Below, piece after piece: positions 1-64,000 of a stretch of DNA of 64,000 nucleotides. The stretch covers positions 3,658,001 to 3,722,000 of the forward strand of contig CP053418.1 of assembly GCA_013127575.1 (NCBI GenBank). Direction: 5' to 3'. A model generated the notes under the pieces. That model saw only the letters and a list, made by a program, of their open reading frames with translations, searched no databases and was not told the DNA's origin. A program made the position numbers and the translations under genes. How positions within the stretch are numbered: the first letter of the stretch is position 1; each line of letters starts with the position of its first letter. Source of the DNA: Ramlibacter terrae. GTDB taxonomy: Bacteria > Pseudomonadota > Gammaproteobacteria > Burkholderiales > Burkholderiaceae_C.

Positions 1-920
1 CCAACACTTACGACAGACAGGAGCAGATTGAGCAACACAGCGCCCCATTTTGGATCAGCTTCTGCAATGCTTCGGGACAAGACGGCAACCCGGTCGGCTC
101 CTATCCATGCTGCGGCAACCAACGCAATGATCAGACCAACAACCCAGACCCACATCGAAGCCGCCAGCCGTGAAGCCCGCTGGTCGAACGCTGCCGCCAA
201 CCCTTTTGTCGTGGTAATTGAGTACGCCTCCTCGCAATTAGCTACCAGCTGGGCGGCTCTCTCGTGCAGCAATCCCATTGCGCTAAGGACGTCCGATGCG
301 CTGCGGTTCGAGTCTGAGATACCCGTGGCTGCTTCCGCAGCTTCGGTGGAGAGAGTCTGAACCCGCGCCGTAGCGGCTTTAAGTTGCTGAAGATCAAGCG
401 GAAGAGACTCAGCAGCTTCGTGTGCTTGCCGAATCTCCTCGAGACGCCTAGAAAGCACATCTCTATCGACATCTACTGAATCAAGCACGGCGGTCATTTG
501 CCGTGCTCTTTTGGCGAGTTTATATGGGACCGAATTCGGTTCCAGAGCAGAGCGATCTGGCAAGGCGAGACCCAGCCACTGCCTCATCCCCTCTAGCGTG
601 TTCATCACCGCCGGAATTGCGTGCAAGCCGTTCCCGCCGTTGAATAGTTGTGGCACTGTATGTGCCTGCATCAAAGCGATTCTTGCAGCGAGTCCAACTA
701 CATAGGTATCCAAAGCTGAGTTGGGATCTTCCGGCATCCGCTCGTCTATCAGTTGATAAAGCGAGCGTATCGACATCTTGATGAGGAATTTGTCGAGCCC
801 GGCGACGTTCCGGGCGTTCCCGCTGATTTCGAACGCCGTTCTAGTTTCCGTCGTAGTGGCGTCTACGGAAGCCTCGAGAGTCTTAAGTGAGTCACTAAGC
901 TGCTTGAATGCGGCGTTCAT
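1..920 (-). CDS. Coiled-coil membrane protein of unknown function (partial, runs off window)
   Basis: The frame is open from an ATG at 920 to the window edge (306 codons, no stop). A strong ribosome site, AAGGAAGG, lies 5 nt upstream of that ATG. Residues 1-150 look soluble. About 150-235 is rich in Glu/Gln/Ala with heptad-like spacing (RRLEEIRQAHEAAESLP) and probably forms a coiled coil. About 258-280 is a clear membrane segment (WVWVVGLIIALVAAAW), and a second hydrophobic stretch (LLNLLLSVVSV) begins at the edge. Codon use is much more AT-rich than in the rest of the window, which suggests horizontal acquisition. I do not recognise a named family with certainty. From memory it resembles uncharacterised coiled-coil/two-TM proteins found in variable genome islands. 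The gene next to it encodes an Mrr-type nuclease, so a defence role is possible but unproven. Confidence 0.75.
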   Translation of the reverse strand, partial: MNAAFKQLSDSLKTLEASVDATTTETRTAFEISGNARNVAGLDKFLIKMSIRSLYQLIDERMPEDPNSALDTYVVGLAARIALMQAHTVPQLFNGGNGLHAIPAVMNTLEGMRQWLGLALPDRSALEPNSVPYKLAKRARQMTAVLDSVDVDRDVLSRRLEEIRQAHEAAESLPLDLQQLKAATARVQTLSTEAAEAATGISDSNRSASDVLSAMGLLHERAAQLVANCEEAYSITTTKGLAAAFDQRASRLAASMWVWVVGLIIALVAAAWIGADRVAVLSRSIAEADPKWGAVLLNLLLSVVSV

Positions 921-1265
921 TGAGCCTTCCTTTGGATACACCGGCGCACCTTGTTGAAAGACTTGGGCGTGCTGTCGAAAGGACCAGTCTAGACGGACTA
1001 CCCAAGTGCTGACGCGGATAAACGAGGACCGCCTGCAGCGCATCTGCCACATACCGCGAGGTCCATGAAGATGGCGCGTTCGTTGGCGGGTCCTGTTCCG
1101 TCGACCCGTCCAGTTTGTGCCAAGGATCGTAGCGTTCCAAGCTTGCGTCGTCTATCCGGTCTACCCCACACTGCGCGCGGTAGTTGGGAGCAGTGTATGA
1201 AATCCTTGTCATCGTGCCGCTTCAGGAGGCGCCCAGAGAAAATGGGGGTGAGTATGCAATTCATT
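921..1265. other. Intergenic region, no convincing gene
   Basis: About 345 bases separate two minus-strand genes. GC is lower than in most of the window. A 105-codon minus-strand frame (1212 to 895) crosses it but overlaps the start of the 920 gene and lacks high-GC codon bias, so I do not call it. The region presumably carries the promoter of the coiled-coil gene; no clear -35/-10 pair is visible. Confidence 0.4.
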
Positions 1266-2147
1266 TCATCGCGTCCCGCGGCATGCCGGAAACTTCGAGC
1301 ATCCCCAGAACTGCGAACCGGCATTGGTCCCCTTCGTGGCCGTTCGCCTCACCATCGGGGAACCGCATTTCGGACAACCCGGAACAGCAGCGGCTGCCGG
1401 CACCCTTGCTGTGTCCACCATCGCCGGCGACGGAGGATGGCGCGCTGCGGGGAGGTCCCGAGGGCGTTTTTCGCGAGCTGCCTTCGCCTGCTGCAGCAGC
1501 CCGAACAGCTTCGGGCCATCGACCAGCCGGACGTTCCTGCCGCTTGCGAATGCGATGGCGTCATCAGTGAAGCTCCCCGAGGTGACGACGAAACCGCCAG
1601 CGGCGCCGTCAGCGGCCATCACCCCATACAGCTCGCGAACCACGTCCACGCCAACCTTGAACGCCTTCCACTGTTTGCACTGGACCGGGAAGGTTTCTTT
1701 GCCCTTGTGCAGGACCAGGTCGACACCTCCGTCTGCCTGCGGACCGCCTTGCTCCCGCACCTCGTAGCCCTGCAGCCGGAACGCCTGCCCCACCAGCGAT
1801 TCGAACTCCTGCCGGGACATGTCCTCCAGCGCCTGCGCAGTGCTGGAGGAGGTGAGCTTGGCAGCCAGTGCACTCCGCCTCCTGCTCGAGACGGCCGAAA
1901 CCGCCGCCCCAATCAGGCACAGCAACGGGACGACGTATTGGAGCCAGAAAGAGAACTGGGAAACGAGCATCGGCACGAGCGCATTGCCGATCTTGGTCGG
2001 GTCGGTGAGTGCCGGCACCGGCCTCGTTGCGAGCCAATGGAACAGGAGGTAGGTAGCTACCGCCACCGCAACGCCCATCCACCATGGCAGCCTGCCCACC
2101 CCTTCCACGAGGTCGTCCGCCGCGCCTTGCCGCCTTCTTCTGGCCAT
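1266..2147 (-). CDS. Membrane-anchored Mrr-type restriction endonuclease with topoisomerase zinc ribbon
   Basis: This 293-residue protein starts at ATG 2147, with GGGAGAG about 7 nt upstream; a longer frame reaches 2216 without a better site. Two predicted membrane segments lie near residues 20-41 (WWMGVAVAVATYLLFHW) and 66-86. A PD-(D/E)XK nuclease domain of the Mrr_cat family follows. Its signatures are the early FESLVGQAF helix, GGVDLVL (metal-binding Asp) and VQCKQWK (Q-x-K). The C-terminus carries CPKCGSPMV and GCSKFPACRG, the four-cysteine ribbon of topoisomerase I C-terminal repeats, which binds DNA. Related proteins are generally annotated as restriction endonucleases, some of which cut modified DNA. 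No methyltransferase lies beside it, which is compatible with a type IV-like, modification-dependent or housekeeping role. Specificity is unknown. Confidence 0.85.
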   Translation of the reverse strand: MARRRRQGAADDLVEGVGRLPWWMGVAVAVATYLLFHWLATRPVPALTDPTKIGNALVPMLVSQFSFWLQYVVPLLCLIGAAVSAVSSRRRSALAAKLTSSSTAQALEDMSRQEFESLVGQAFRLQGYEVREQGGPQADGGVDLVLHKGKETFPVQCKQWKAFKVGVDVVRELYGVMAADGAAGGFVVTSGSFTDDAIAFASGRNVRLVDGPKLFGLLQQAKAAREKRPRDLPAARHPPSPAMVDTARVPAAAAVPGCPKCGSPMVRRTATKGTNAGSQFWGCSKFPACRGTR

Positions 2148-2255
2148 GTACTGCTCTCCCTTTTTGGGTTGCAAATGTAGCGGGGCGCCGGATAAGCGTC
2201 CAGCGCGCAGACGCACTCATGGCCATCGCTTGGTGGCCACCTGCACAATGTCGCG

Positions 2256-2546
2256 GTGCGCCCCTCGGAAGCCCTCGAACTTCATCGCGATCGCATCCGC
2301 GAGATCGCATTGCGGCACAGGGTGAGCGACGTCCACGTTTTCGGATCAGCCAGCAGGGGTGAAGATACGGAGAGCAGTGATCTCGACCTGCTCTCCGAGC
2401 CGACAGAGGAAACGACCCTGTTCGACATCTGCGCTATCCGGCTGGAGCTCAAGCAGCTGCTCGGTGTGGAGGTCGACGTGCTCACGCCCAATTCGCTACC
2501 CGATGCCTGTCGGGATCGCGTGCTCCGAGAAGCCATGCGGTTGTGA
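2256..2546 (+). CDS. MNT-type nucleotidyltransferase (MntA-like), no HEPN partner
   Basis: A 96-residue protein starting at GTG 2256. It contains the minimal nucleotidyltransferase core: FGSASRGE followed by SDLDLL, the G-S-x(n)-D-x-D signature of the MNT family. In studied HEPN/MNT pairs the MNT protein is the antitoxin and AMPylates the HEPN ribonuclease. Here no DUF86/HEPN frame is found within the 80 bases before the next gene or on the other side, so the gene is an orphan or its partner is elsewhere. The start is the least certain part: an ATG at 2248 is out of frame, so either GTG 2256 is used or a base is missing. Confidence 0.75.
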   Translation: MRPSEALELHRDRIREIALRHRVSDVHVFGSASRGEDTESSDLDLLSEPTEETTLFDICAIRLELKQLLGVEVDVLTPNSLPDACRDRVLREAMRL

Positions 2547-2628
2547 AGCTGCAGCATGGTCTGCAGCCGCGGCCGCCGATCGGTGCGCAGCAAGCTGCAC
2601 ACCCTACGAAGGCAAGGCCGCCAAAGCG

Positions 2629-3378
2629 CTAAGCGCCTCGCGCCTTCCCCAACTTCCCCTTCAACCCACTCCCCGCCTCCAGCTCCTTCACCCACAGCGC
2701 ATACCCCGCATCGCTAGGATGCAACCCATCCCGCGCATGCAACTCCCTCGGCCGCTGCGCGAACGGGTCCTCCGCCCGCGGCTTGTAGAGATTCACGTAC
2801 GTAGCGCCCGTCGCCTGAGCGGCCTGCCGCACGGCGGTGTGCAGCATTTGCGAGCGGCGGTCCATCCACCACGCGAGCGGGCGCCAGAAGAACGGCGCAT
2901 TGCCCACGTTCCCCGGCGGCATCATCACGACGAAAGGCGCGATCTGCTTGGCCAGGTCGGCGGCTTGGCGCACCTGCGCAGTGAGCTCGCTAGTTCCCGT
3001 GTTCCGGATCACGTCGTTGCCGCCACCCGGGACCAGCACCGCATCGAAGCGCGACGTGTCCGCCTGCAACTGCCGCACGATGTCTTCGTAGCGCGCGCCG
3101 TCGGTCGCGCGGTTGACGACGCGCAGCTTCGGCAGGTCCGCCGCCAGCAGGCCGGCGACGCTGCGAGTCGGGTCTGACGCGCCGGTGCCGACAGCAGTGC
3201 TGTCGCCCACCACCAGCAGGCTCGCGACCGCAGATGCAGGCTGCGCCTGGAAGGGTTCGCTGTCGCGCGCCAACCGGCCGGCTTCGCGCATCTTCCAGGC
3301 GGAACAGCCGGCGGTGGCGGCAGCGCCGAGGAGCGCAAGCAGGACGAGGGGGCGGATCAGGTTGGGGCGGCGGGTCAT
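2629..3378 (-). CDS. SGNH/GDSL-family hydrolase, lipoprotein
   Basis: 249 residues. An N-terminal hydrophobic signal ends in a lipobox-like LGAAATAGC, so the mature protein should be lipid-anchored in the envelope. The SGNH blocks are visible: VVGDSTAVG (nucleophile Ser near residue 59), GGGNDV (oxyanion Asn), and DGLHPSDAGY (catalytic Asp/His) near the C-terminus. Members are esterases or lipases acting on ester or acetyl groups; the substrate is not predictable. The gene is intact and stands alone, back to back with the MNT gene. Confidence 0.85.
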   Translation of the reverse strand: MTRRPNLIRPLVLLALLGAAATAGCSAWKMREAGRLARDSEPFQAQPASAVASLLVVGDSTAVGTGASDPTRSVAGLLAADLPKLRVVNRATDGARYEDIVRQLQADTSRFDAVLVPGGGNDVIRNTGTSELTAQVRQAADLAKQIAPFVVMMPPGNVGNAPFFWRPLAWWMDRRSQMLHTAVRQAAQATGATYVNLYKPRAEDPFAQRPRELHARDGLHPSDAGYALWVKELEAGSGLKGKLGKARGA

Positions 3379-3459
3379 CCACGCAAACTACCGCAGACGC
3401 GATGCGGAGCCGGTAGGCGGAAGCCGCCGCCGACGACTCCGAAGCACGCGTAGTGGGCC

Positions 3460-4113
3460 CTACTTCCCCGCCCGCGCCTGCTTCATCATGCTGCTCTCGC
3501 TGGTGATCACGCCGATCACGCGCGCCAGCTGCCGGCTGACCGACACGTAGGCGTGGCCGATGCGGCTGTCGAAGTAGAGCGAATCGCCCTTGGCCAGCCG
3601 CATCACCTCCCCGGTGTCGAAGTGCACGTCGATGCTGCCGCTGAGTACGTGCACGAACTCCTCGCCCGGATGCCGCGCATAGTCTTCCGGCCCGGCAATG
3701 GTGCGCGCGTGCACTGTTCCGAGCACCGGCTCCATCTGCTTGCCGGCTGCATGCGTGCCGAGGAACTCGTAAGAGAACGAGAGGCCGCGGTACACCACGC
3801 CCTGCCCCGAGCGCGTGAGCACGGGGCCGGCGAACGGCTTGGCCGTGACGCCCGCCTCCGAAAACATCGCGCTCATGTCCATCTGCAGCGCGCGCCCGAG
3901 CGCGGAGAAGTTCTCGTAGCCCAGCGCGAGCTGCCCGCGCTCTGCGCGCGAGATGGTGGTGATCGAGACGCCGGAGCGCTCGGCCACTTCCGCCAGCGTC
4001 CACCCCAGTTCCTTGCGCGCGGTGCGCAGCCGCCGACCCAGCGTGGCGGGGTCGAGGGTGTGGGCGGCGGCAGCCGGCGGGGGCGGTGCGTCCGATCGGA
4101 CGGGTTTGCGCAT
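3460..4113 (-). CDS. XRE-family regulator with C-terminal cupin domain
   Basis: About 217 residues from ATG 4113; an in-frame GTG at 4131 is possible but less likely. Residues about 25-80 form an XRE helix-turn-helix (GWTLAEVAERSGVSITTISR). Residues about 145-212 form a cupin_2 barrel (HPGEEFVHVLSGSIDVHFDT) that in relatives binds a small ligand. The gene diverges from the oxidase/peptidase/ABC operon and is its likely local regulator. A 16-bp palindrome lies across its own start codon and a second copy lies in front of the operon, which argues for autoregulation and control of both directions. PuuR-type regulators share this architecture. Confidence 0.9.
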   Translation of the reverse strand: MRKPVRSDAPPPPAAAAHTLDPATLGRRLRTARKELGWTLAEVAERSGVSITTISRAERGQLALGYENFSALGRALQMDMSAMFSEAGVTAKPFAGPVLTRSGQGVVYRGLSFSYEFLGTHAAGKQMEPVLGTVHARTIAGPEDYARHPGEEFVHVLSGSIDVHFDTGEVMRLAKGDSLYFDSRIGHAYVSVSRQLARVIGVITSESSMMKQARAGK

Positions 4114-4120
4114 CTGCAAA
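4105..4120. promoter_or_regulatory. Putative operator 1 of the XRE-cupin regulator
   Basis: TTTGCGCATCTGCAAA is an imperfect inverted repeat (TTTGCg-n4-tGCAAA). It covers the ATG of the regulator gene and matches the second copy 65 bp away at 13 of 16 or more positions. Confidence 0.6.
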
Positions 4121-4169
4121 TTCTCTTTCACCTACGAACCAGACCCCCAAGGGAAAACCCGGCACGGCA

Positions 4170-4185
4170 TTTGCGTATCCGCAAA
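4170..4185. promoter_or_regulatory. Putative operator 2 / -35 region of the catabolic operon
   Basis: TTTGCGTATCCGCAAA is a perfect inverted repeat with 6-bp arms and a 4-bp centre. It lies 38 bp before the first gene of the operon. A TACACT at 4193-4198, 17 bp after TTTGCG, could be the -10 box, so binding here would block the -35 region. Confidence 0.6.
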
Positions 4186-4222
4186 ACTGCCATACACTCC
4201 GCCGCAAACAACCGTCCCATCC

Positions 4223-6856
<2,634 letters not shown>

Positions 6857-6900
6857 CCGTCCCCGGCACTCCCGCCAACCCGCCCCCGGAGAACATCAAG

Positions 6901-8490: not shown

Positions 8491-8508
8491 GCAGCGCCGC
8501 GCGCACCC

Positions 8509-9441
8509 ATGGCCTACTTCCTGCGCCGGCTGGTCGCCACGCTGCCCGTGATGGCGGTGGTGGCGGTCCTCGTCTTCCTGCTGATCCACCTGTCGCCGGG
8601 CGACCCGGCAGCACTGATCGCGGGCGACCGGCGACCGAGGAAGACATCGCCAAGCTGCGCGTCGCCCTCGGCCTGCACCAGCCGCTGTGGCAGCAGTTCT
8701 CGATCTGGGTCGGCAAGCTGCTCACCGGCGACCTCGGCACCTCGATCTTCACGCAGGTGCCGGTGTCGCAGCTGCTCGCGCAGCGGCTGGAGCCCACGCT
8801 GTCGATCGCCGCCCTGACCATGCTGATCACGCTGCTGGTGGCGGTGCCGCTGGGCACGCTCGCCGCCTACCGCGCGGGCACGTGGATCGACCGGCTCGTA
8901 ATGCTGTTCGCGGTGCTGGCGTTCTCGCTGCCCGTGTTCTGGTCGGCTACCTGCTGATCTACGGCTTCGCGATCAAGCTGCAGTGGTTTCCGGTGCAGGG
9001 CTACGTGCGCTTCGCCGAAGGGCCGGTGCTGTGGCTGCAAAGCCTGGTGCTGCCCTGCGTGAACTGGCGCTGGTCTACATCGCGCTGGTCACGCGCATGA
9101 CGCGCGCCACGGTGCTCGAAGTGCTGCACGAGGACTACATCCGCACCGCACGGGCCAAGGGGCTCGGCGTGCTGCCGGTGCTGGGCCACGCGCTGCGCAA
9201 TGCGGCGATCCCGATCGCCACCACCGTCGGTGTGGGCGTCGCGCTGCTGATCGGCGGCGTGGTCGTCACCGAGACCGTCTATGCGATTCCCGGCGTCGGC
9301 CGCCTCGTCATCGACTCCGTGCAAAGGCACGACTATCCCGTGATCCAGAGCGTTCTGCTGCTGTCCGCCGGCGTGTACGTGCTGATCAACCTGCTGATCG
9401 ACCTGAGCTACCGCCTGTTCGATCCGCGCATCCAGTACTAG
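8509..9441 (+). CDS. Peptide ABC transporter permease, DppB type, frameshifted in assembly
   Basis: Begins MAYFLRRLVATLP, the usual DppB N-terminus, followed by LIHLSPGDPA. The C-terminal part carries the EAA-loop region (EDYIRTARAKGLG) and ends FDPRIQY, which is diagnostic for DppB. Three single-base losses, near 8628, 8943 and 9064, shift the frame; each fits a CCAGG or CCTGG (for the second, PVFLVGYLLIYG is restored). The reconstructed length of about 311 residues and six membrane segments match the family. It pairs with the DppC-type permease 8 bases downstream. Confidence 0.9.
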
Positions 9442-9448
9442 AGCCTTC

Positions 9449-10335
9449 ATGTCCGCCGCACTTCCGGCCGCCCCCGTGGCCGCCCCCGACGAAGGCGCAC
9501 CGCGCCCGCGCCGCTGGCGCTGGGCCCGCAAGCACCCGACGCTGATCATCGGCGCGCTGATGCTCATCGTGATCGCCGCGATCTCGCTGGCCGCGCCGTG
9601 GATCGCCACGCACGACCCGCAGGACTGGACCCGATCGCGCGCATGCAGCCGCCGTCGGCGGAGCACTACTTCGGCACCGACGCGCTCGGGCGCGACGTCT
9701 TCAGCCGCGCCGTCTGGGGCGGACGCATCTCGATGGCCGTGGGCCTCGCCGTCGCGATCCTCGCGACCGTCATGGGCGTGCTGATCGGCCTCGTATCCGG
9801 CTTCGTGCGCTGGGCCGACGGCATCATCATGCGGGTGATGGACGGCCTGATGGCGATCCCCGGCATCCTGCTGGCCATCGCGCTGATGGCGGTGACGCAG
9901 GGCAGCCTGACCACCGTGATCGTCGCCATCACCATCCCCGAGATCCCTCGTGTGGCGCGGCTGGTGCGCTCGCTCGCGCTGACGTTGCGCGAGCAGCTGT
10001 TCGTCGAGGCGGCGCATGCCGTCGGCACGCGACTGCCGACGATCCTGTGGCGGCACGTGCTCCCCAACATGGTGGCGCCGTTGATCGTGCAGGCCACCTT
10101 CGTCGCCGCGTCCGCCGTGCTGATCGAGGCTTCGCTCTCCTTCCTCGGCGTCGGCATCCCGGCGCAGACGCCGAGCTGGGGCAACATGATGGCCGAAGGC
10201 CGCAACTTCGTGGCCGTCGCCTTCCACATCATCCTGTACCCCGGGATCCTGCTGGCGCTGACCGTGCTGGCCATCAACCTGCTGGGCGACGGCCTGCGCG
10301 ATGCGCTCGACCCGCGCCTGGCCCGCCAGCTGTGA
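9449..10335 (+). CDS. Peptide ABC transporter permease, DppC type, frameshifted in assembly
   Basis: Cytoplasmic N-terminus rich in Pro/Ala/Arg, then a first membrane segment ([18 protein letters not shown]). The DppC hallmark follows ([15 protein letters not shown]), then the EAA loop ([13 protein letters not shown]). The C-terminus ends with [12 protein letters not shown], typical of DppC. A single deletion near 9627 (GACTGGACC for GACCTGGACC) breaks the frame. About 296 residues when restored. The stop is followed within 6 bases by the first ATPase gene. Confidence 0.9.
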
Positions 10336-10340
10336 CCGCG

Positions 10341-11352
<1,012 letters not shown>

Positions 11353-11356
<4 letters not shown>

Positions 11357-12319: not shown

Positions 12320-12336
12320 ACTTTCCGAAAGAGCCC

Positions 12337-13812: not shown

Positions 13813-14180
13813 CCCAGATCCAACGCTTTCCCACGCCGATGGCGGTGCCCTTCTCAAGGCGGTCCGCGCCAATGGCTTCATCTTCCTGAGCGGCCAGCTG
13901 GCGATGGACGCCACCGGCAACATCATCGAAGGCGACATCCGGCGCAGACCAAGGTGGTGCTCGAGCGCATTGCCGCGACGCTGGAAGAAGTCGGTTCGCG
14001 CATGGCCGACGTGGTCCGCACCACGGTGTGGCTGGGCAACCTCGACGACTTCGCGGCCTTTAACGAGGAGTACAGGAAGCACTTCGCCGGCGCGCTGCCG
14101 GCACGCTCCACCGTGGAGGCAAAGCTGTACAAGGGCGCGCTGGTGGAGATCGAGGTGCAGGCGGCCGTCACGGGGCGTAA
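13809..14180 (+). CDS. RidA/YjgF family enamine/imine deaminase, frameshifted in assembly
   Basis: Characteristic pieces: GFIFLSGQLAMD, the IxAQTKVVLERI helix, VVRTTVWL, and near the C-terminus LPARSTVEAKLYKGALVEIEV with the substrate-binding Arg. The family hydrolyses 2-imino acids made by amino-acid oxidases or PLP enzymes to keto acids plus ammonia, which fits an operon with an amino-acid oxidase. The start codon overlaps the deacylase stop. Breaks near 13852 and 13940 (the latter CCAGG to CCGG) split it. The stop is uncertain: one lost G in the run near 14174 would end the protein at 14180, otherwise the frame reads on into the opposite gene. About 124 residues. Confidence 0.8.
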
Positions 14181-34216: not shown

Positions 34217-35037
34217 ATGCATGCCGTCTTCCGCTTCTCGCTCCCCCTGCTCCTCGCCGCCACGCTGGCCCCTCGCGGGCGCAGCCGATCGAGGAAGTCC
34301 CTTTCATCACCTCCCCCGACAACGTCACGCTGGAAATGCTGCGCGTGGCGAACGTCGGCCCCGCCGACCATGTGATCGACCTCGGCTCCGGCGACGGCCG
34401 CATCGTCATCCGGCGGCGAAGCGCTTCGGCGCCACCGGGCTGGGCGTGGAGATCGACCCGAACCTGGTGCGGCAAAGCCGGCGCCATGCGCTCGACGCCG
34501 GCGTGGAGCCGCGCGTGCGGTTCCGGAGCAGGACCTGTTCAAGACCGACCTCGCGCCGGCCACCGTGATCACGATGTACCTGCTGCCCGAAGTGAACATG
34601 GCGCTGCGGCCCGCGGTGCTGGCGCTGAAGCCCGGCACGCGCATCGTTTCGCACGACTGGGACATGGGCGACTGGAAGCCCGACCAGACGACGGTGCTGC
34701 CGGTGCCGAACAAGAAGGTGGGCTGGAGAAGTCGAGCAAGGTGCACCTGTGGGTCGTGCCCGCCCGCGTCGAGGGCCTGTGGTGCGGCAGCGGCGCCAGC
34801 CTGCGCGTGGCGCAGCGGCACCAGCAGTTCAGCGCGCGGCTGGTGCACGGCGGCGCCGTGCGCGAACTCGACGGCCGCATCCGCGGCACCGCACTGCAGG
34901 CGAAGGCGCCGGGCGAGGCATCGGTGGACTTGCAGGCGGCGCCCGACGCGCTGCGCGTCACCGGCGGCAGCGGCGCGCTGGCCGCGCTGCAGGGACAGTC
35001 GTTCCGCCGCGCCGCCGGCACCGGCTGCGGCGCCTGA
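34217..35037 (+). CDS. Exported SAM-dependent methyltransferase-like protein, frameshifted in assembly
   Basis: N-terminal signal-like stretch (MHAVFRFSLPLLLAATLA), then a class I methyltransferase domain: VIDLGSGDGRIVI (motif I), GVEIDPNLVRQSR, ITMYLLPEVN and GTRIVSHDWDMGDW. The C-terminal 90 residues are a separate beta-rich region. Breaks near 34270 (C run), 34413, 34526 and 34725 are inferred, the last three as CCWGG losses. A methyltransferase with a signal peptide is unusual because SAM is cytoplasmic. Proteins of this layout are common in Burkholderiales and uncharacterised. The DMT transporter starts 4 bases after the stop. Confidence 0.75.
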
Positions 35038-35041: not shown

Positions 35042-35951
35042 GTGAACTGGTGGTGGATCCCCATCGTCCTGTTCGGGGCGCTGGCACAGACGGCGCGCAA
35101 TGCCGCGCAGCGCTCGCTCGTGGCGCAGGCGGGCACGCTCGGCGCGACGCTCGTGCGTTTTCTCTACGGCATCCCGTTCGCGGCGGCGCTGGTGCTGCTG
35201 CTGCACGCGCTGCCCGCCACCACGGCGCCGGTGCCGGCCTTCGGCGCCGGATATTTCGGCTGGCTGATGCTCGGCGCGCTCGGCCAGCTCGCGGCCACCG
35301 CGTTCCTGCTGGTGGCCATGAAGCAGCGCAACTTCGTCATCGGCGTGGCGTACTCCAAGACCGACGCCCTGCAGGTCGCGCTGTTCGGCTCCCTTTTCCT
35401 GGCCGAGCTGCCGGGATGGGTGACGCTGCTCGCCATCGCGCTGGCCACCAGCGGCGTGCTGCTCCTGTCGCTGCCGGCCAAGGCATCGCTCACCGGCGGC
35501 GCGCGCACTGGACCAGCGGCGCCGCGCTCTGGGGCCTCGCCTCGGCGCCGGCTTCGCGATCTCCGCCGTCGGTTACCGCGGCGCCGCGCTGCAGCTGCCC
35601 GGCGTGCCGGCGTGGCTGATCGGCGCGTGGGGCGTGCTGTTCGCGCAGACCGCGCAGAGCCTGCTGCTCGGTGGCTGGCTGGCGGCGCGGTCGCCCGCTT
35701 CGCTGCGCGCGACGGTGACGGCGTGGCGGATTTCGCTGGTGGCCGGTGGCGCCGGCGCGCTCGCGTCGCTGTGCTGGTTCACGGCTTTCGCGCTGACCAC
35801 CGCCGCCAACGTGCGCACGCTCGGCATGGTCGAAGTGGTGTTCAGCTACCTCGTCTCCCGCAGGCTGCTGCGCGAGAAGCTGGAGATCGCCGAACAGGCC
35901 GGGCTGGCGCTGGTCGTGGTCGGACTGCTCTGCCTTGGGCTCCAGCTCTAG
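35042..35951 (+). CDS. EamA/DMT-superfamily transporter, frameshifted in assembly
   Basis: GTG start, MNWWWIPIVLFGALAQTARN. About ten membrane helices in two EamA halves (FLYGIPFAAALVLLLHAL, FGWLMLGALGQLAATAF, WVTLLAIALATSGVLLL, then LWGLASGAGFAISAVGYRG restored, and AGLALVVVGLLCLGLQL). Two deletions, near 35504 (CACTGGACC for CACCTGGACC) and 35541, shift the frame. About 303 residues. Family members export or import metabolites, often amino acids. Substrate unknown. Confidence 0.85.
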
Positions 35952-38294: not shown

Positions 38295-39689
<1,395 letters not shown>

Positions 39690-50618: not shown

Positions 50619-50629
50619 TCACGCCGTGA
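50619..50629. promoter_or_regulatory. Putative MarR operator half of a twin site
   Basis: TCACGCCGTGA, a perfect inverted repeat with 5-bp arms and one central base. Its centre lies 21 bp, two helical turns, from that of the related site at 50640. Confidence 0.5.
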
Positions 50630-50639
50630 GGTAGTTAGG

Positions 50640-50650
50640 TCATGCCATGA
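50640..50650. promoter_or_regulatory. Putative MarR operator half of a twin site
   Basis: TCATGCCATGA, a perfect inverted repeat that differs from the first copy only by paired changes (C to T, G to A) that keep the symmetry. It lies 45 bp before tctB. Confidence 0.5.
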
Positions 50651-50694
50651 TATGAATCGCCGCCGGCTGCCACCAACCACAGGAAACGGATCCC

Positions 50695-51159: not shown

Positions 51160-51165
51160 TCCCCC

Positions 51166-52668: not shown

Positions 52669-52670
52669 GG

Positions 52671-53138: not shown

Positions 53139-53140
53139 GC

Positions 53141-54697: not shown

Positions 54698-54786
54698 AAG
54701 TGTCTTCTTCTCGCCCCGGGTCTGGATGGCGAGGCGAAGTTAACACCTTTGCCCAAAGCCTGCTGGCATCGGGGCAAGCGCGGCCG

Positions 54787-56377: not shown

Positions 56378-56439
56378 TGCTCTCTCCTGGTGGAGCGCCC
56401 ATTCTCCGCGCGCGCCGGCGGCCTCGCCAGCCGGGTTTG

Positions 56440-56978
56440 TCAGGAGGCGCGGGCGCCGGCGGGTTGCCGCAGCTCGCGTTCGAGTTCGCCGCGGCCGTCT
56501 TCCAGCAGGTCGTCGGCCTCGCCCGGCAGCGCGCCGCCGGGCGACAGCTGGTCGACCATCTCGGGCATGATTTCGGCGAAGGCCTGCGCCACCTCCTGCT
56601 CGGGCACGCCGAGGCGCTGCGCCATCCGGGCGAGCTCGTCGCGTCCGACCACCTGCTGCACCGCCTGCTCGTCGAGCACCTCGTTGTCGCCGCTGGCGAT
56701 CCACGATTGGGCCGGCGTCCGTACCCGCGCTCCCGGAAGCGCTGGAGCACCGCGCCGATGCCGCCGTTGTTCTGCACCCAGCGCATGGCCAGCGGCAGCA
56801 TCATCAGCAGGATGGCGTTGCGGCCCCCACCGCCGCGGCCCGGGGGCGCACGACGGCCACCGAGCATCCCGCCGAGGACGCTCCCCATCGCGGCGCCGCC
56901 GAGGCCGCCGCCCATTCCACGCCGGCGCATCGCATGTCCGAAGACGCCACCCAGCACCTGTCCCAGCAACGGGTTCAT
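56440..56978 (-). CDS. YidB-like DUF937 protein, frameshifted in assembly
   Basis: ATG 56978 with AGGAGC upstream. Gly/Met/Arg-rich N-terminus (GQVLGGVFGHAMRRRGMGGG) with a short hydrophobic core (NAILLMMLPLAMRWV), then the DUF937/YidB C-terminal domain (IASGDNEVLDEQAVQQVVGR, LARMAQRLGVPEQEVAQAFA, MPEMVDQLSPGGALP). One base is missing near 56714 (CGCCGGCCC for CGCCAGGCCC). About 180 residues. Function unknown. Confidence 0.85.
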
Positions 56979-57078
56979 CGCAAGCTCCTGTTGATCCGCA
57001 TGCTTGCAGCGTCGCGGCCGGGCGGACGCGCGGGTGTAGGCCCGCGGCCTGCCTGCACCGCGGCAACGGCTGGCAGCG

Positions 57079-57747
57079 TCAGCGCGCGAGCACGCGCAGC
57101 AGCCAGTCGTTGAGGTGGTGGATCTCCTCCATGCACACCGAGTGGCCGATCGGGTAGTCGTGCCAATCGACCGCATAGCCCATCGCGCGCAGCGCATCGG
57201 CCGACTGCTGGGCCCGCGCGAGTTCGATCACTTCGTCCTGCCAGCCGTGCGCCGGGAAGACCGGCGTCGCCTGGTTGGCCTCGCTGCGCTCCGCGGCGGT
57301 CTGCTGCGCCAGCGGCAGGTAACCCGAAAGGCCCACGATGCCGGCCAGCGGCTTCGCATGGCGCAGGCCCGTCATCAGCGCCATCGCGCAACCTTGCGAA
57401 AAGCCGGCGAGCACGATGCGGTCCGACGCGATGCCGCGTTCCTCCTCGCGCTGCAACAGCGCCTCCACGACGGCCTGCGAGCGGCGCAGCCCCGCCTCGT
57501 CCTGCACGCCCTGCGACTCGGTACCGAGGATGTCGTACCAGGCCCGCATGCGGTAGCCGTTGTTGATCGTCACCGGCATCACGGGCGCGTGCGGGAAGAT
57601 GAAGCGCTCCGGGCCGACGGACGCCAGGTCGAGCTCCTGCGCGATCGGCACGAAATCGTTTCCGTCGGCGCCGAGCCCGTGGAGGATGATGAGGGTGGCG
57701 ACGGGGTTGGGGCCGGATTCGGCCTCGATGGTTTCGAGCGCGGACAT
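57079..57747 (-). CDS. Carboxylesterase/phospholipase family alpha/beta hydrolase
   Basis: Intact, 222 residues from ATG 57747 with SD GGAGACC. LIILHGLGADGNDFVPIAQE (oxyanion region), LAGFSQGCAMALMTGL (nucleophile Ser in GFSQG), PVFPAHGWQDEVI (catalytic Asp) and DYPIGHSVCMEEI (His). This is the Abhydrolase_2 family, which hydrolyses short-chain esters and acyl-thioesters. Stands alone. Confidence 0.9.
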   Translation of the reverse strand: MSALETIEAESGPNPVATLIILHGLGADGNDFVPIAQELDLASVGPERFIFPHAPVMPVTINNGYRMRAWYDILGTESQGVQDEAGLRRSQAVVEALLQREEERGIASDRIVLAGFSQGCAMALMTGLRHAKPLAGIVGLSGYLPLAQQTAAERSEANQATPVFPAHGWQDEVIELARAQQSADALRAMGYAVDWHDYPIGHSVCMEEIHHLNDWLLRVLAR

Positions 57748-57881
57748 GCAGGGTCTCCTTGCGGCCAAGCATAAACGCGCCCGCGGCGGGCGAGCGGTGT
57801 CCGACACACCATTCGGAGCCGTCCGACTTGGGGCGGCCCGCGCTGCCCGCAGAGTGAAGTCAACGAAGAAAGGAAACCCGC

Positions 57882-58267
57882 ATGAAAGTGCAAGTGAACA
57901 CGAGCAACGACGTCGAGAACAAGGAAGGCCTGGAGCGCTGGGCCAGCGACTACCTCAACGAGCAGCTCGCGCGTTTCGACCAGGACCTCACCAGCATCGA
58001 AGTGCAGTTGACCGACGAGAACCACGCCGCCAAGGGCGGCGGCGCCGACAAGCGCTGCATGCTGGAAGCCCGCATGAACGGCCGCGCCCCGGTGGCCGTT
58101 ACCAACTTCGCCGCCAACCAGGACTGGCCTTCCGCGGCGCGACCGAAAAGCTGGTGCATGCGCTCGACCACCATTTCGGCAAGCTCGACCGCAAGGAGCA
58201 CCGCGTGCGCGACACCATCCGCCGCGATCCGGAAGTGCTCGAGGGCGTGGTCCCGCCGCAGGCCTAG
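57882..58267 (+). CDS. hpf: Ribosome hibernation promoting factor (HPF/RaiA family), frameshifted in assembly
   Basis: ATG 57882 with a GAAAGGAAA site. Short HPF fold: MKVQVNTSNDVENKEGLERW, IEVQLTDENHAAKGGGADKR, CMLEARMNGRAPVAVTNFA and, after one lost base near 58125 (GACTGGCC for GACCTGGCC), a helix (GATEKLVHALDHHFGKLDRK). About 128 residues. It binds the 30S subunit in stationary phase. The C-terminus overlaps the convergent aminotransferase by 4 bases. Confidence 0.88.
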
Positions 58268-59160
58268 TACGCGACTGGCGTGGCGTAGCGCGGATCGCCG
58301 TGCCACGCCCAGTAGGTTTCGGCGAGCCGGCGCGTCAGCGCGCCCGGCTCGCCGTTGCCGATGGCCGCGCCGCCGACGCGCGTCACCGGCAGCACGCCGC
58401 CGCCTGAACTGCTCAGGAAGGCCTCGTCAGCCGTCCGCAGTTCGTGCGCCGGCAGCGCGCGCAGCTCCACCGGGATGCCGAGGGCCTGCGCCATCTCGAT
58501 CACGGTGCGCCGCGTGATGCCCTCCAGCACGCCTTCCTTCGGCGTCACCAGCGTGCCGCCGCGGACGGCGAAGACGTTGAAGCCCGGCCCTTCCACCACG
58601 TTGCCCGGGCATCGGTCAGCAGCACCGTGTCGCCGCCGGCATCGAGCGCACCGAGCAGCCCCATCGTCAGGTCGTTCCAGTGGTAATTCTTGGCCGTGGG
58701 ATCGACGCTCGCGGCGGGGATGCGCTGCACGTCGCTCACGATCACGTTCAGGCCGCGGCGGCGCTGCTCCTCGTTGGCGATCCACACGTACGGCACGGCG
58801 AAGGCGTAGAACTGGTTCGCGGCCTGGCGCGGATCGCGCGAACCCCAGGCCGGCTGGCCGCGGGTGCAGACCATCTCCACGTAGGCGCTGCGCAGCCCGG
58901 CGCGGCGCACGCACCCGGTGAGGATGTCGACGATGCCCTCCGCGTCGCGTCCCGGATCGAGCCGGAAGCGAGCGCAGCTGCGCAGGAAACGCTCGGTGCG
59001 CGTCGAGGCGGAAGAACGAACCGTCCCACACCGTGACGACGTCATAGGTCGCGTCGGACCGCAGGAAGCCCCAGTCGGTCATCGGGATGCTCGCCTGCGC
59101 AATGGGAACGTACGCGCCGCGCTGCCAGGCGGCGCCCCGGGAGAAGTCGGGCTGGTCCAT
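58264..59160 (-). CDS. Class IV PLP aminotransferase (D-amino acid/branched-chain type), frameshifted in assembly
   Basis: ATG 59160. Fold-type IV features: [19 protein letters not shown] and RLDAHLERF (restored). [19 protein letters not shown] carries the K-N-Y motif with the PLP Lys; [20 protein letters not shown] and [20 protein letters not shown] bind the PLP phosphate. Members are branched-chain or D-amino-acid aminotransferases or 4-amino-4-deoxychorismate lyase. Two breaks, near 58988 (two bases) and 58609, restore to CCTGG and CCAGG. About 300 residues. Confidence 0.88.
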
Positions 59161-59227
59161 GCGCGCATTCTGCGGCAGCACGCGCTTCGCTACCATGCGG
59201 GCGAATCAACAGCGCGAGGAGCAGCCC

Positions 59228-60036
59228 ATGGCCATGGACGTGATCGACTACGAGATCCGCGGATCGGAAATGCAGTTCGTCGAGGTGGAGCTCGACCCCG
59301 GCGAGGCGGCGATCGGCGAGGCCGGCAGCATGATGTTCATGGACGCCGGCATCACGATGGACACGGTGTTCGGCGACGGCAGCGCGCAGCAGGGCGGCTT
59401 CTTCGGCAAGCTGCTCGGGGCCGGCAAGCGGCTGGTGACGGGCGAGTCGCTGTTCACCACGGTGTATTCCAACCGGTGCAGGCCAAGCAGCGCGTGGCGT
59501 TCGCCGCGCCCTATCCCGGCAAGATCCTGCCGATGGACCTGCACCAGCTCGGCGGCACGCTGATCTGCCAGAAGGATGCGTTCCTCTGCGCCGCGCGCGG
59601 CGTGTCGCTGGGCATCGCGTTCCAGCAGAAGCTGTCGGTCGGCTTCTTCGGCGGCGAAGGCTTCATCATGCAAAAGCTCGACGGCGAGGGCATGGCTTTC
59701 GTCCACGCGGGCGGCACCTGCATCAAGCGCGAACTCGCCGCCGGCCGGTGCTGATGGTCGACACCGGCTGCGTGGTGGCGCTCACGCCCGGCGTCAACTT
59801 CGAGATCCAGTACGTGGGCAAGGTGAAGACGGCGCTGTTCGGCGGCGAGGGCCTGTTCTTCAGCAAGCTCACCGGGCCCGGAACGGTGTGGCTGCAAAGC
59901 CTGCCGTTCTCGCGGCTGGCTTCGCGGGTGTTCGCGGCGGCGCCGCAACGGGGCGGCTCGCGCGACGAAGGTTCGGTGCTCGGCGGCGGCCGGCGGCGCG
60001 CTGCTCGGCGGCGTGCTCGGCAGCGACGACGACTGA
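59228..60036 (+). CDS. TIGR00266/AIM24 family protein, frameshifted in assembly
   Basis: ATG 59228. AIM24 beta-sandwich: [80 protein letters not shown] and [20 protein letters not shown]. Breaks near 59477 and 59747 (each CCAGG to CCGG) and 59989 (two bases) are repaired to end at TGA 60034-60036 in a Gly-rich tail. About 270 residues. Bacterial members are uncharacterised. Confidence 0.88.
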
Positions 60037-60210
60037 TGTCAAGCGTGACGCGGCATTCGGACGGATGAGGACACGACCAGAAACACTTGTGCCAACGTGT
60101 TTCCCTCGCTGTTGCGGAACTGCCTCTCCTTGCCGCGCTACAGCGTGCGTAAATGGCGCTCCGGTTGCGGCGTTCCGGCCGAACCCGGAAACCCATCAGG
60201 AGACGAAGAA

Positions 60211-60573
60211 ATGAACCTTGCCTTCAAGAGAACGACCTGCCGCGTGCTGGTGGCCTCCCTCCTCACGCTGTCCTTCCACACGGCCCAGGCGGGCCTGATC
60301 GGCGCCGACCGGGCGGCCCCGGCGACATCGCCCGGCAGCGACCGCGCGCTGGTGCTCGGCACGCTGGACCGCGCCGAAGTCGCCGCGCAACTGCAGGCGG
60401 CCGGCGTCGATCCGCGCGCCGCCCGCGAGCGCGTCGCGACCATGACCGACCGGGAAGTGCACGTGCTGGCTCAGGACATCCAGAACGCGCCGGCCGGCGC
60501 CATCTCCGGCTGGGGCTGGGTCGCGGTCATCCTGATCGCCGGCCTGATCTGGTACTACGCCATCCGCAAGTAA
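60211..60573 (+). CDS. PA2779 family protein
   Basis: Intact, 120 residues. Signal peptide (VLVASLLTLSFHTAQA), a helical middle (DRAEVAAQLQAAGVDPRAAR, ERVATMTDREVHVLAQDI) and a C-terminal membrane helix (GWVAVILIAGLIWYYAIRK). It is the usual partner of the PA2778-type peptidase encoded 9 bases downstream. Ribosome site AGGAG lies about 14 bases before the ATG, with a nearer GAAGAA. Function unknown. Confidence 0.88.
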   Translation: MNLAFKRTTCRVLVASLLTLSFHTAQAGLIGADRAAPATSPGSDRALVLGTLDRAEVAAQLQAAGVDPRAARERVATMTDREVHVLAQDIQNAPAGAISGWGWVAVILIAGLIWYYAIRK

Positions 60574-60582
60574 GAAGGAGCG

Positions 60583-61541
60583 ATGCGGACGAACGCAACG
60601 GCTTCGTTCCGGACACGGCTGCTCGCCCGGGCGGCCGTGTTCCTCCTGCTGTCCGGCTGCGCATCGCTGGTGCCGCAGACGATGAACCTGCGCACCGACT
60701 GGCCCGAGGGCGTCCCGCGGCAGGTCGACCCGCCCAGTGCCGTTCTTTCCCCAGAAGGACTACCAGTGCGGGCCCGCCGCGATCGGCATGGCACTCGCGT
60801 ACAGCGGCGTGCCGGTGCAGCCGGACGCCCCGGTCGACGAGGTCTGGCTGCCGTCGCGCAAGGGCAGCCTGCAGGTGGAGATGCTCGCCACGCCGCGCCG
60901 CCATGGCCGCGTGAGCTACCGGCTGGCGCCGCGCTACGGCGACCTGCTGCGCGAAGTGGCCGCCGGCAATCCGGTGGTGGTGCTGCAGGACGTCGGCTTC
61001 ATCGGCGCCACGGCACTACGCGGTGGTCAACGGCTACGACTACGCCACCGGCACGATCACGCTGCGCTCGGGGCTGCAGCTGCAGCAGCGCATGTCGTTC
61101 ACCGCGTTCGAACGCACCTGGCTGCAGGGCGGCTACTGGGGCATGGTGGTGCTGCCGCCGGGCCGCATCGCAGCCACGGCGACGGAAGAAAAGTGGCTGG
61201 AGGCGCTGCTGGGGCTCGCACGCGGCGGCGACGCCGAAGCCACGGTGCAAGCGTACGCAGCGGCGCTGCAACGGTGGCCCGACAGCCTGCCCGCGGCCAT
61301 CGGCCTCGCCAACCACCTGCACGCGCGCGGCGCGCTCGGCGAAGCGGCCGGCGTGTTGCGCACCGCGATGCAGAAGCACCCGCAATCGGTGATCGTGCTG
61401 AACAACCTGGCGCAGACGCTGTCCGACCTCGGGCGGCATGCGGAGGCGCTGGCGCTGCTCGATCGCGCCGCCGAGGCGCAGAGCCCGTTCGCCTCCGAAG
61501 TGCGCGCGACGCGCCAGCTCGTCGAATCGCGGATGCGCTAG
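60583..61541 (+). CDS. PA2778 family cysteine peptidase with TPR tail, lipoprotein, frameshifted in assembly
   Basis: Lipobox in LLLSGCASLVP. C39-like papain fold: VPFFPQKDYQCGPAAIGMAL (catalytic Cys), GRVSYRLAPRYGDLLREVAA, and the catalytic His in HYAVVNGYDYATGTI. After about 140 residues come TPR helices (WPDSLPAAIGLANHLHARGA, VIVLNNLAQTLSDLGRHAEA). Breaks near 60735 (two bases) and 61008 (two bases, GCCACGGCAC for GCCACCTGGCAC) restore to CCWGG. About 320 residues. Probably a periplasmic peptidase acting with the PA2779 protein. Confidence 0.88.
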
Positions 61542-62594
61542 GCGGCCGGGGCCTTCGCGACGCGCGTCACGAACCCGGGCGCGTGCGCGCCGTCGATCCA
61601 GCGCACCACCACCACGGCCTCGCTGGCCGGATCGATCCACGTGTAGTGGCCGCCCGCTCCGACGGGGAACCAGCTTTCGCGCGAGGCATCCGCGAACATG
61701 CGGCCATCGCGGTTCAGCCAGGTGAGCCAGCCGTAGAACGGCGCCACGGCCGAGGGCTGCTGCATCCGACGCACCCAGTCCGCCGGGACGAGCTGCCGGC
61801 CCGCATGCGCCCCGTTATCCAGCAGCATCTGCCCGATGCGCGCCTGGTCGCGCGCCCCGATGGAGACGCCGCCGCCCCAGTGCGTGCCGCCGGGCACCGA
61901 CTGCATCCGCCGGCCGTCGATCTCCACCCACGCGTCGTCGTAGCCCACCCACTGCCACCCGGCCGCGGGCCCGCCCAGCGGGCGCAGGATGGCCTCTTCG
62001 AACACCTCCGGCAGCGGACGCCGGAACAGGTGCAGCAGCGCCAGCGCGAACTGGTTGATGCGCACGTCGTTGTATTCCCAGTAGCTGCCCGGCGGCTGCA
62101 GCGTCCGCGCTTCGCCCTTCGCGCCCTGCGGCGGCTTGGGGTCGTGCGCGACGCGCCGGTTGTGCTCCACCGGTCGGGCATGCCGAAGCAGGTGCCGCCC
62201 CATTCGCTGGTCTGCTCCAGCAGGTGGGCCCAGTCACGGCGGCATTGTGCGGATCGTCGAAGCCGATGCCGGGCAGCCGTTCGCCCACGCGCTGCCGCGC
62301 ATCCGGCAGCAGGCCGCGCGCATGCGCCACGCCGGCCAGCAACGCGAGGTAGGTCTTGGCGACGCTGTACGTGAGGTCGGCGCGGTCGGGTTCGCCCCAG
62401 CTCGCCACCTCCTCGCCGCGCACGCGGATGACGCCCGACACGCCGCCGCGCGGATGCACCGGCCCGCGCAGCCGGTTGAACGGCGGCGGATCCGCATGGT
62501 GGACGCCCCAATGCGCCGGGTCGGCGGCGGGGTCGCGCGGCCAGCTCACCTCGTGCGCCTGCGCGTAGGCGACTGCTTCGCTGAAATCGTGCAT
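61538..62594 (-). CDS. Serine hydrolase, beta-lactamase class C family, frameshifted in assembly
   Basis: ATG 62594. SxxK in LTYSVAKTYLALLAG (nucleophile Ser and Lys), the Tyr motif in YWEYNDVRINQFALAL (Y-x-N), and HxG-like FPVGAGGHYTWIDP near the C-terminus. No signal peptide is evident. Breaks near 62175 and 62233 (CCTGG to CCGG and CTGG) split the chain. About 352 residues. Such proteins are esterases, D-aminopeptidases or penicillin-binding relatives. Divergent from the NUDIX gene with 24 bases between. Confidence 0.85.
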
Positions 62595-62618
62595 GGGGCG
62601 CAGGATAAGCTAGCTGCC

Positions 62619-63492
62619 ATGGAACTGCTGCCAGGCTTTCGCAACGAAGCGACACCTCTTCCCTCCGCCACGGTGGTGCTGCTGCGCGACGGGCACGAGG
62701 GCCTCGAGGTGTTCCTGCTGCAGCGCCACGCGCAGTCCGACGTGCTGGGCGGCGCCTATGTCTTTCCCGGCGGCAAGGTCGATGCCGGCGACGCCGACTG
62801 GCTGGACCGGCTCGACCTGCCGCCGGCCGAACTGCAGGCGCGCGCCGGGCGAACCCGACACGGACGCCGCGCAGGCGGCCACGCTGTTCGTTTCCGCGGT
62901 GCGCGAACTGTTCGAGGAAACGGGGCTGCTGCTGGCGGACGTGGCGCCCGAACAGGCGCGGCAGTCGTGGCAGGCCTTGCGCAGCGGCGCCGGCTTCACC
63001 GAGCTGCTCGCGCCGCTGAACCCGAGGCTGGCGGCCAGCGGGCTGCAACCCCTGGTCGCGCTGGGTGACGCCGGTGGTCAGCAGCGTGGCGCGCAAGCGC
63101 TTCGACACGCGCTTCTTCGTGGCCGCAGTGCCGCCGGGCCAGCAGCCCGCGCACGACGACCACGAGGCGACGGCCAGCCTGTGGCTGTCGCCCGAGGCGG
63201 CCTTGCGCCAGTACTGGGACGGCCACATCGAGCTGGCGCCGCCGCAGATCATGAGCCTGGCGCACTGGCGCGCCACGCCACGCTGGCCGGCGTGCTCGCC
63301 GCGGCCCGCGCCCGCACGCCGCCCTGCATCCGCCCGGAGCCTTTCGACGTGGATGGCGAACGGGTGCTGTGCTATCCCGGCGACGCTGCGCATTCGGTGC
63401 GCGAGCAGTACCTGCCGGGGCCGACGCGCCTGCGCTGGCGCAACAAGCGCTTCGAGCCCGACGGCGGGCTCGCCATGCTGCTCGGCGATTGA
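62619..63492 (+). CDS. NUDIX hydrolase, frameshifted in assembly
   Basis: ATG 62619. N-terminal beta-strands (ATVVLLRDGHEGLEVFLLQR, GGAYVFPGGKVD) start the Nudix box. An insertion follows, then the RELFEETGLLLA half of the box (G-x5-E ... REUxEE). The C-terminal part (VARKRFDTRFFVAAVPPGQQ, EATASLWLSPEAALRQYWDG) matches the NUDT19/CoA-pyrophosphatase-like group. Breaks near 62851, 63064 and 63274 are needed; the first and third fit CCTGG. About 292 residues. Likely hydrolyses CoA esters or nucleotide diphosphate conjugates. Confidence 0.85.
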
Positions 63493-63569
63493 GCATCGCG
63501 CCCCGCCCTGCTCCCATCGCCTCCCACACGCCGCGCACCGCCGCGCCTACAGGCGATGACGCTGCCGGC

Positions 63570-63591
63570 CTGCGCCACGGCCGTGGCGCAG
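63570..63591. repeat. 22-bp perfect palindrome
   Basis: CTGCGCCACGG is directly followed by its reverse complement. It lies in the 251-bp gap after the NUDIX gene and could form a strong hairpin (a terminator without a T-run) or a protein-binding site. The rest of the gap (63493-63743) shows no gene. Confidence 0.6.
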
Positions 63592-63743
63592 GGCCCCTAA
63601 TGACACAAAGCCAGCCGGCTTCCGCGCTACAACGACAGGTATCGGACTTTTCCGCCTCCGCGGGCGATCAGCGAGAACATTGTCCAGTGGGCCGGCAGGC
63701 TTTCCCCGCGGACGCGTCCGTCCCGATCCCAGCGCCCGCCCTC

Positions 63744-64000
63744 ATGAACGATCTTTCGCACGCACCCGCCGAAGCCCCGTCCCGACTGCGCAGCCCCGCC
63801 ACCGCCTGGTCGCTGCTGTTCGCGGCGATCCTGCTGGGCGGCATCCTGTCCGTCGATGCGCCCCGGGCGCGCCCCGATCCCGCCGGCGTGCGCGAGGTGG
63901 TGCAGCAGCAATTGCAGGCACTGGCCGCCGAAGACGCCGGCACCGCCTTCGCCCTCGCGGACCCGGGCCTGCGCACCCGCTTCGGCAATGCCGACGAATT
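63744..64000 (+). CDS. DUF4864 domain protein (partial, runs off window)
   Basis: ATG 63744; 85 codons are visible. An N-terminal membrane helix (AWSLLFAAILLGGILSV) is followed by the DUF4864 start (GVREVVQQQLQALAAEDAGT, AFALADPGLRTRFGNADEF). Such proteins are small exported or membrane-anchored proteins with an NTF2-like fold. No good ribosome site is seen. The end lies beyond the window. Confidence 0.75.
   Translation, partial: MNDLSHAPAEAPSRLRSPATAWSLLFAAILLGGILSVDAPRARPDPAGVREVVQQQLQALAAEDAGTAFALADPGLRTRFGNADE

Follow-up and report, generated by a model that had tools for sequence, protein, structure and literature searches.

Frame breaks locked to CCWGG in a stretch of the Ramlibacter terrae genome point to nanopore consensus errors at putatively methylated sites

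The window considered here is a stretch of 64,000 nt from Ramlibacter terrae, bases 3,658,001-3,722,000 of contig CP053418.1 (GCA_013127575.1), the single contig of a genome of 5,277,406 bp (G000 in our set). Its reading frames are repeatedly broken by small insertions and deletions, and CCWGG sites (W being A or T) are scarce in it relative to CCSGG sites (S being G or C), with a ratio of the two, hereafter W/S, of 0.35. An Rfam scan at the gathering threshold and a tRNA scan of the window returned no matches. A reading of the window made earlier from its letters alone, which we call the sequence-only reading, had proposed that the frame breaks are locked to CCWGG and result from the failure of a nanopore consensus at methylated sites. 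The low W/S ratio is not peculiar to the window: 16 stretches of 20 kb scattered over the genome also gave 0.35, and the density of CCWGG in them is alike, about 2.0 per kb. Stretches from five relatives (G005, G007, G008, G011 and G014) have 4.9-6.6 CCWGG per kb and W/S ratios of 1.2-1.5. The density of CCSGG is 5.6-5.9 per kb in R. terrae, versus 4.1-5.1 in these relatives.

The genome is that of strain H242T, a soil isolate sequenced with MinION reads, assembled with Unicycler 0.4.7 at 306x coverage and reported as complete, with an annotation of 5,653 total genes, of which 2,807 are protein-coding (PMC9705899). The terms Illumina and PacBio have no occurrence in the main text of that paper (PMC9705899), from which we infer that the assembly was made from nanopore reads without short-read polishing. 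The nanopore origin that had been guessed from the letters alone agrees with this record. The same study describes R. montanisoli B156T, whose assembly has two contigs (4,459,501 and 293,893 bp; PMC9705899); we took our genome G014 to be this strain and used it as a control, obtained in the same study and by the same method as H242T. All the relatives used are strains or species other than H242T, at about 81% identity to it.

The association of the breaks with CCWGG was measured from the motif side by following the fate in R. terrae of each 5-mer present in a relative, provided that its flanks were ungapped and matching, and with no restoration of reading frames by hand. The region covered was 464 kb (the window and 200 kb on either side), compared with 540 kb of G011, of which 260 kb aligned at 80.8% identity. 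CCWGG sites of G011 had undergone a deletion of 1-2 nt in R. terrae in 116 of 961 cases (12.1%) and an insertion in 27, versus deletions at only 11 of 638 CCSGG sites and at 3,236 of 182,538 5-mers of all kinds pooled (1.8%). By deletion rate CCWGG ranked second, behind AGGTA/TACCT (21/167). With G014 as the relative, CCWGG was deleted at 135 of 1,142 sites (binomial P 1.4e-67) and was the most significant of all 5-mers, with CCSGG at 13 of 646; against four further relative stretches the count for CCWGG was 24 of 272.

The products of deletion are varied. Normalised for orientation, the 116 cases found against G011 comprise CCGG (49), CCAG (36), CGGG (13), CCG (9), CAGG (7) and two others, and a replacement of the same length, CCAGG to CCGGG, was found at 87 of the 961 sites. 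Deletion is governed by the base that follows CCAGG, with 130 of 552 sites deleted before T, 23 of 362 before G, 46 of 431 before A and 52 of 758 before C (counts pooled over G011 and G014, where one site may be counted twice). We rejected a broader CCNGG specificity, as the CCSGG deletions of R. terrae against the two relatives (11/638 and 13/646) are hardly above those of the G014 control (9/773). A separate break motif (AGGTA, ACCTG, CGAGGTA) was rejected as well. With CCWGG masked, CGAGGTA and its neighbours were prominent; CGAGGT of G011 or G014 was deleted in R. terrae at 37 of 548 sites, and in 29 of these 37 the R. terrae sequence starts with CC (CCGGT 19, CCAGT 6, CCGT 4), so that the site in R. 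terrae was most likely CCAGGT. The second motif is thus traced to sites of the CCAGGT type.

The same association appears from the side of the breaks. For this we retained indels of 1-2 nt whose position was shared by the alignments to G011 and to G014; the 227.7 kb covered by both yielded 258 of them (213 deletions and 45 insertions), or about 1.1 per kb and 70 per 64 kb. CCWGG stands in at least one relative at 138 of the 213 deletions (65%), versus 286 of 5,000 random positions (5.7%), and at 21 of the 45 insertions. The remaining deletions include 18 in a homopolymer at least 4 nt long, 35 with a one-mismatch form of CCWGG, which is weak evidence as about 23% of background positions have such a form, and 22 others. 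Where R. terrae has an intact CCWGG, the relative also has CCWGG at 314 of 482 sites (65%); since the share among deletions matches this share among intact sites, most deletions fit a CCWGG origin. The lock claimed by the sequence-only reading is therefore confirmed from both directions. Its tally of about 90 breaks at CCWGG and about ten elsewhere is of the right order, given our rate per 64 kb and our CCWGG share, but was not reproduced break by break. Restoring frames by hand is a weak procedure alone, and a partly circular one, because a one-deletion remnant of CCWGG is present in 31% of random 10-mers.

Within the window, at least one relative stretch aligned over 50.7 kb and at least two over 34.9 kb. 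CCWGG was found in 24 of the 43 deletions backed by at least two stretches and in 33 of all 131 deletion clusters, those seen against a single stretch included; the corresponding counts for insertions were 3 of 18 and 4 of 82.

What share of the sites is affected? Among 534 sites that are CCWGG in both G011 and G014, 154 are intact in R. terrae, 86 carry a deletion, 69 a change of the central base and 9 an insertion, and 216 are otherwise substituted. When these other substitutions are set aside, roughly one true CCWGG site in two appears altered (164/318), in line with the earlier remark that the error is partial and leaves many sites intact. The central base is changed almost as often as a base is deleted. 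For the control motif GCWGC, 745 of the 1,005 sites present in both relatives are intact and 3 are deleted; over four control motifs, 50-74% of sites are intact and 0.3-1.1% deleted, and the central base is changed in 0.6-1.4% for three of them but at 37 of 208 sites for CCSGG. With W at codon position 2, it has become G or C at 63 of 562 sites in R. terrae versus 2 of 671 in the G014 control; the figures are 10 of 135 versus 3 of 181 at position 1, and 3 of 17 versus 4 of 19 at position 3. As a change from W to S at position 2 is nonsynonymous, the errors also create false amino-acid changes in frames that are left intact.

Does the lock belong to the sequencing method or to the genome? In G014, a profile search of the genome gave no match to PF00145, the C5-methyltransferase family, and only 8 of 1,193 CCWGG sites of G011 are deleted there, with 686 intact; its own strongest excess of deletions is in C runs and A runs, that is, in homopolymer errors. 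Since this genome comes from the same study and method and lacks the CCWGG lock, the platform and pipeline alone are not the cause, and the lock goes with the enzyme-bearing genome. Two other relatives, G007 and G016, have Dcm-like and Vsr genes and, whatever the method by which they were sequenced, show no CCWGG deletion, at 0 of 61 and 0 of 76 sites respectively; the enzyme alone does not seem to be a sufficient cause either. Between relatives, deletions at CCWGG are rare in both directions, with 0 of 273 in G011 at sites of the others and 2 of 204 in the others at sites of G011.

Essential genes are not spared. In R. terrae, rpoC, alaS and the better-matching of two dnaE-family genes are each in six pieces, and the second dnaE-family gene is in two; no second full-length rpoC or alaS was present among the matches listed for this genome. 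The same genes are each in one piece in G011, while in G014 the two dnaE-family genes are one piece each, rpoC is split in two and alaS in three. A cell without rpoC, alaS or dnaE is not viable, and the fragmentation of these genes makes it very unlikely that the breaks are real.

The sequence-only reading had predicted a CCWGG methyltransferase encoded outside the window, and a candidate is present. The sole PF00145 match in the R. terrae genome is at contig positions 7172-8152, far outside the window (280.7 bits, cut-off 22), and the open frame of 365 residues that holds it matches TIGR00675, the dcm superfamily, with 319.3 bits (cut-off 100.65); we describe its product as Dcm-like. Its closest relatives of solved structure are 3lx6 and 3me5, which we take to be Shigella Dcm. 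They align with it through the target-recognition stretch, which sets the specificity of a methyltransferase, including the segments NGFG and RTLSARYYKDG. The gene next to it encodes Vsr (TIGR00632, 145.9 bits, cut-off 97.85; PF03852, 108.3 bits, cut-off 27) and is followed, on the other strand, by a gene for an MvaI/BcnI-type endonuclease (PF15515, 129.5 bits, cut-off 25). The whole cassette occupies contig positions 5312-8188. PF15515 is rare in the genus, with 2 of the 59 genomes searched. Methyltransferases of family PF01555 were found neither in R. terrae nor in G014, other adenine-methyltransferase families not having been searched.

The same trio of families adjoins on plasmids of Thauera humireducens (identities of 69% for the methyltransferase, 58% for Vsr and 49% for the endonuclease) and Celeribacter indicus (64%, 52% and 42%, respectively). 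Both of these trios are plasmid-borne, whereas that of R. terrae is on the 5.28-Mb contig, at 5.3-8.2 kb. The homologue on a plasmid of Thauera aminoaromatica has a neighbour annotated as an HNH endonuclease; the comparison covered these three of the plasmid hits. In the literature, we found no paper treating Dcm, Vsr and MvaI together. Judging from the error motif, the R. terrae methyltransferase would be active and specific for CCWGG.

The CCWGG lock, the methyltransferase gene, the control from the same study and the breaks in essential genes can be brought together in a simple scheme. The Dcm-like C5-cytosine methyltransferase encoded beside Vsr and the MvaI/BcnI-type endonuclease would methylate CCWGG. 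A basecaller blind to the methyl mark would then make the same mistake in the reads at the same sites, and the mistake would be retained in the consensus: the central W would be lost or called as G or C, or an adjacent G or C would be lost, or occasionally a base would be gained. The indels would yield frameshifts about once per kilobase, and the base changes false amino-acid substitutions. The underlying cause would presumably be a nanopore signal disturbed by the modified base. We consider it almost certain that the pattern of the window reflects nanopore consensus errors at CCWGG sites methylated by a Dcm-like enzyme encoded elsewhere on the contig, so that the sequence-only reading was in substance correct.

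A number of observations weigh against this explanation. On the basis of the error motif, methylation of CCWGG is no more than probable. The methyltransferase reaches 418.9 bits against NF007772, the subfamily of E. coli Dcm, under its cut-off of 710, and is thus Dcm-like rather than an E. coli-type Dcm; its frame lacks about 52-57 residues at the start relative to two plasmid homologues; and, with frame breaks this numerous, the search could miss a further, broken methyltransferase. G011 has three C5-methyltransferase matches, weaker and partial, and shows no sign of CCWGG errors. Some breaks do not fit: 22 of the 213 deletions supported by two relatives correspond neither to CCWGG, nor to its one-mismatch form, nor to a homopolymer, and for 19 of the 43 window deletions backed by at least two stretches CCWGG is absent from every stretch with the gap, although even an intact CCWGG is matched by CCWGG in the relative at only 314 of 482 sites. 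There is also a discrepancy in the completeness of the genome, listed at 63.72% versus 95.6% by CheckM in the describing paper (PMC9705899). The two values for this one genome suggest, as a separate observation, that frame breaks may be judged very differently by different completeness tools.

Could the damage be genuine? Genome decay, with genes truly broken, would resemble other decaying genomes in that only about half of the recorded genes (2,807/5,653) are protein-coding. However, decay should leave essential genes intact, yet rpoC, alaS and the main dnaE gene are in six pieces each, versus one each in G011; moreover, the breaks track a 5-base motif, and changes from W to S are frequent at the codon position where they are nonsynonymous. 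Decay is thus extremely improbable, and the dismissal of random pseudogenisation in the sequence-only reading agrees with both the broken essential genes and the motif lock. A motif could be tracked by a real process if the scars were those of the resident enzyme. MvaI cuts CC^WGG and leaves a one-base overhang; loss of this overhang followed by rejoining would convert the site to CCGG, which is the commonest deletion product (49/116), and a gene of the MvaI/BcnI family is present. Such scars leave unexplained the other products (CCAG, CGGG, CCG and CAGG) and the replacement of CCAGG by CCGGG (87/961), essential genes are again among those broken, and G007, which has Dcm-like, Vsr and MvaI/BcnI matches, has no deletion at 61 sites. 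We give this possibility hardly any credence.

Errors of the ordinary nanopore kind, due to homopolymers or high GC, might instead have fallen at CCWGG by chance or have been placed there by an ambiguous restoration by hand. The permissiveness of that procedure (31% of random 10-mers) and the 18 of 213 deletions in homopolymers speak in favor of this idea, but CCWGG stands in the relatives themselves (138/213 versus 286/5,000 random positions), the homopolymer errors of G014 in the same study are accompanied by none locked to CCWGG, and the equal break rates expected for CCWGG and CCSGG are not seen, which together make it highly implausible. The last alternative concerns the CCWGG deficit alone, part of which could be real and reflect site avoidance under CCWGG restriction-modification, on top of the errors. 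Ten 20-kb stretches of G016 have 2.96 CCWGG and 3.71 CCSGG per kb (W/S 0.80), a mild deficit of CCWGG (observed/expected 0.78) that comes with the Dcm-like and Vsr genes and with 0 deletions at 76 sites, and real avoidance is possible in that genome. Against this, G007 shows no deficit (6.11 per kb), and in R. terrae the intact, deleted, centre-changed and inserted sites add up to 318 of 534 (60%), inside the 50-74% range of intact sites for the control motifs. A real contribution to the deficit is conceivable but rather unlikely.

Consensus errors at methylated CCWGG are a known artefact, and R. terrae is a new instance of it; the biology is ordinary, with a known error at a known motif. The nearest precedent is a study of Klebsiella pneumoniae by Wick and colleagues, which reports that about 70% of consensus errors were in Dcm motifs with the default models of the then-current basecallers of Oxford Nanopore Technologies (2019, PMC6591954). 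As in R. terrae, the errors were concentrated in CCAGG/CCTGG of native DNA, the models being untrained on this methylation; however, that work dealt with K. pneumoniae and had an accurate reference (PMC6591954), whereas the present diagnosis concerns a betaproteobacterium in which some half of the true sites are altered, and was drawn from its finished assembly and from relatives about 81% identical to it. For Listeria, Chiou and colleagues ascribed genomes of low quality to modification-mediated errors at pentanucleotide motifs and presented Modpolish (PMC10687267). There too the motif was drawn from the errors, and in four strains the errors are linked to a lineage-specific system encoding a methyltransferase; the Listeria motifs are GCAGC and GCTGG, not CCWGG, and the default setting of Modpolish draws on genomes that are at least 95% identical (PMC10687267).

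What is added here is the diagnosis for H242T, the class of false missense changes, the effect of sequence context, a natural control and a candidate enzyme, though the presence of the artefact in this genome may have been remarked on earlier. More generally, we are inclined to think that finished nanopore-only assemblies hold a readable imprint of the methylome, from which relatives of about 80% identity can return the motif, separate CCWGG from CCSGG, show context effects and predict an active methyltransferase, which a search of the genome then turns up. If this is true, the Dcm-like/Vsr/MvaI-type cassette of Ramlibacter would be active at CCWGG, and raw signal might no longer be needed to assign enzyme specificities in many unsampled species. 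The case also shows that error patterns in raw sequence let a reader diagnose a base modification, and it points to the likely enzyme. H242T being the type strain, its false breaks and missense changes would mislead annotation, completeness estimates, phylogeny and claims of gene loss.

The sequence-only reading had named 14 breaks as examples, and these fared unequally (Table 1). Seven coincide with a deletion and a CCWGG in a relative, and five with a deletion in the absence of CCWGG. At 35504, the alignments to relatives contain no qualifying gap, and at 59477 no relative aligned.

Table 1. Frame breaks and motif content of the window, with their state in the aligned relatives (positions are those of the window)
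Feature	Positions	Strand	Observation
Frame break 4847	4836..4851	.	Deletion versus 12 relative stretches, CCWGG in at least one
Frame break 5143	5130..5146	.	Deletion versus 12 relative stretches, CCWGG in at least one
Frame break 6138	6132..6143	.	Deletion versus 3 relative stretches, CCWGG in at least one
Frame break 6511	6505..6513	.	Deletion versus 3 relative stretches, no CCWGG there in any
Frame break 8628	8624..8635	.	Deletion versus 3 relative stretches, CCWGG in at least one
Frame break 9627	9620..9631	.	Deletion versus 2 of 3 relative stretches, CCWGG in at least one
Frame break 10928	10922..10933	.	Deletion versus 3 relative stretches, CCWGG in at least one
Frame break 13940	13934..13946	.	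Deletion versus 3 relative stretches, CCWGG in at least one
Frame break 34413	34408..34418	.	Deletion versus the sole aligned relative stretch, without CCWGG
Frame break 34725	34715..34730	.	Deletion versus the sole aligned relative stretch, without CCWGG
Two frame breaks near 38652	38648..38668	.	Each a deletion versus 2 of 3 stretches, without CCWGG
Frame break 61008	60999..61010	.	Deletion versus 1 of 2 relative stretches, without CCWGG
Whole window	1..64000	.	CCWGG depleted (133 sites, 2.08 per kb); CCSGG raised (376 sites, 5.88 per kb); breaks at lost CCWGG

When one protein of the window was compared with named genomes, the top two among the best 80 matches listed were from Ramlibacter sp. 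RYN_569 (91%) and Caenimonas sedimenti (86%).

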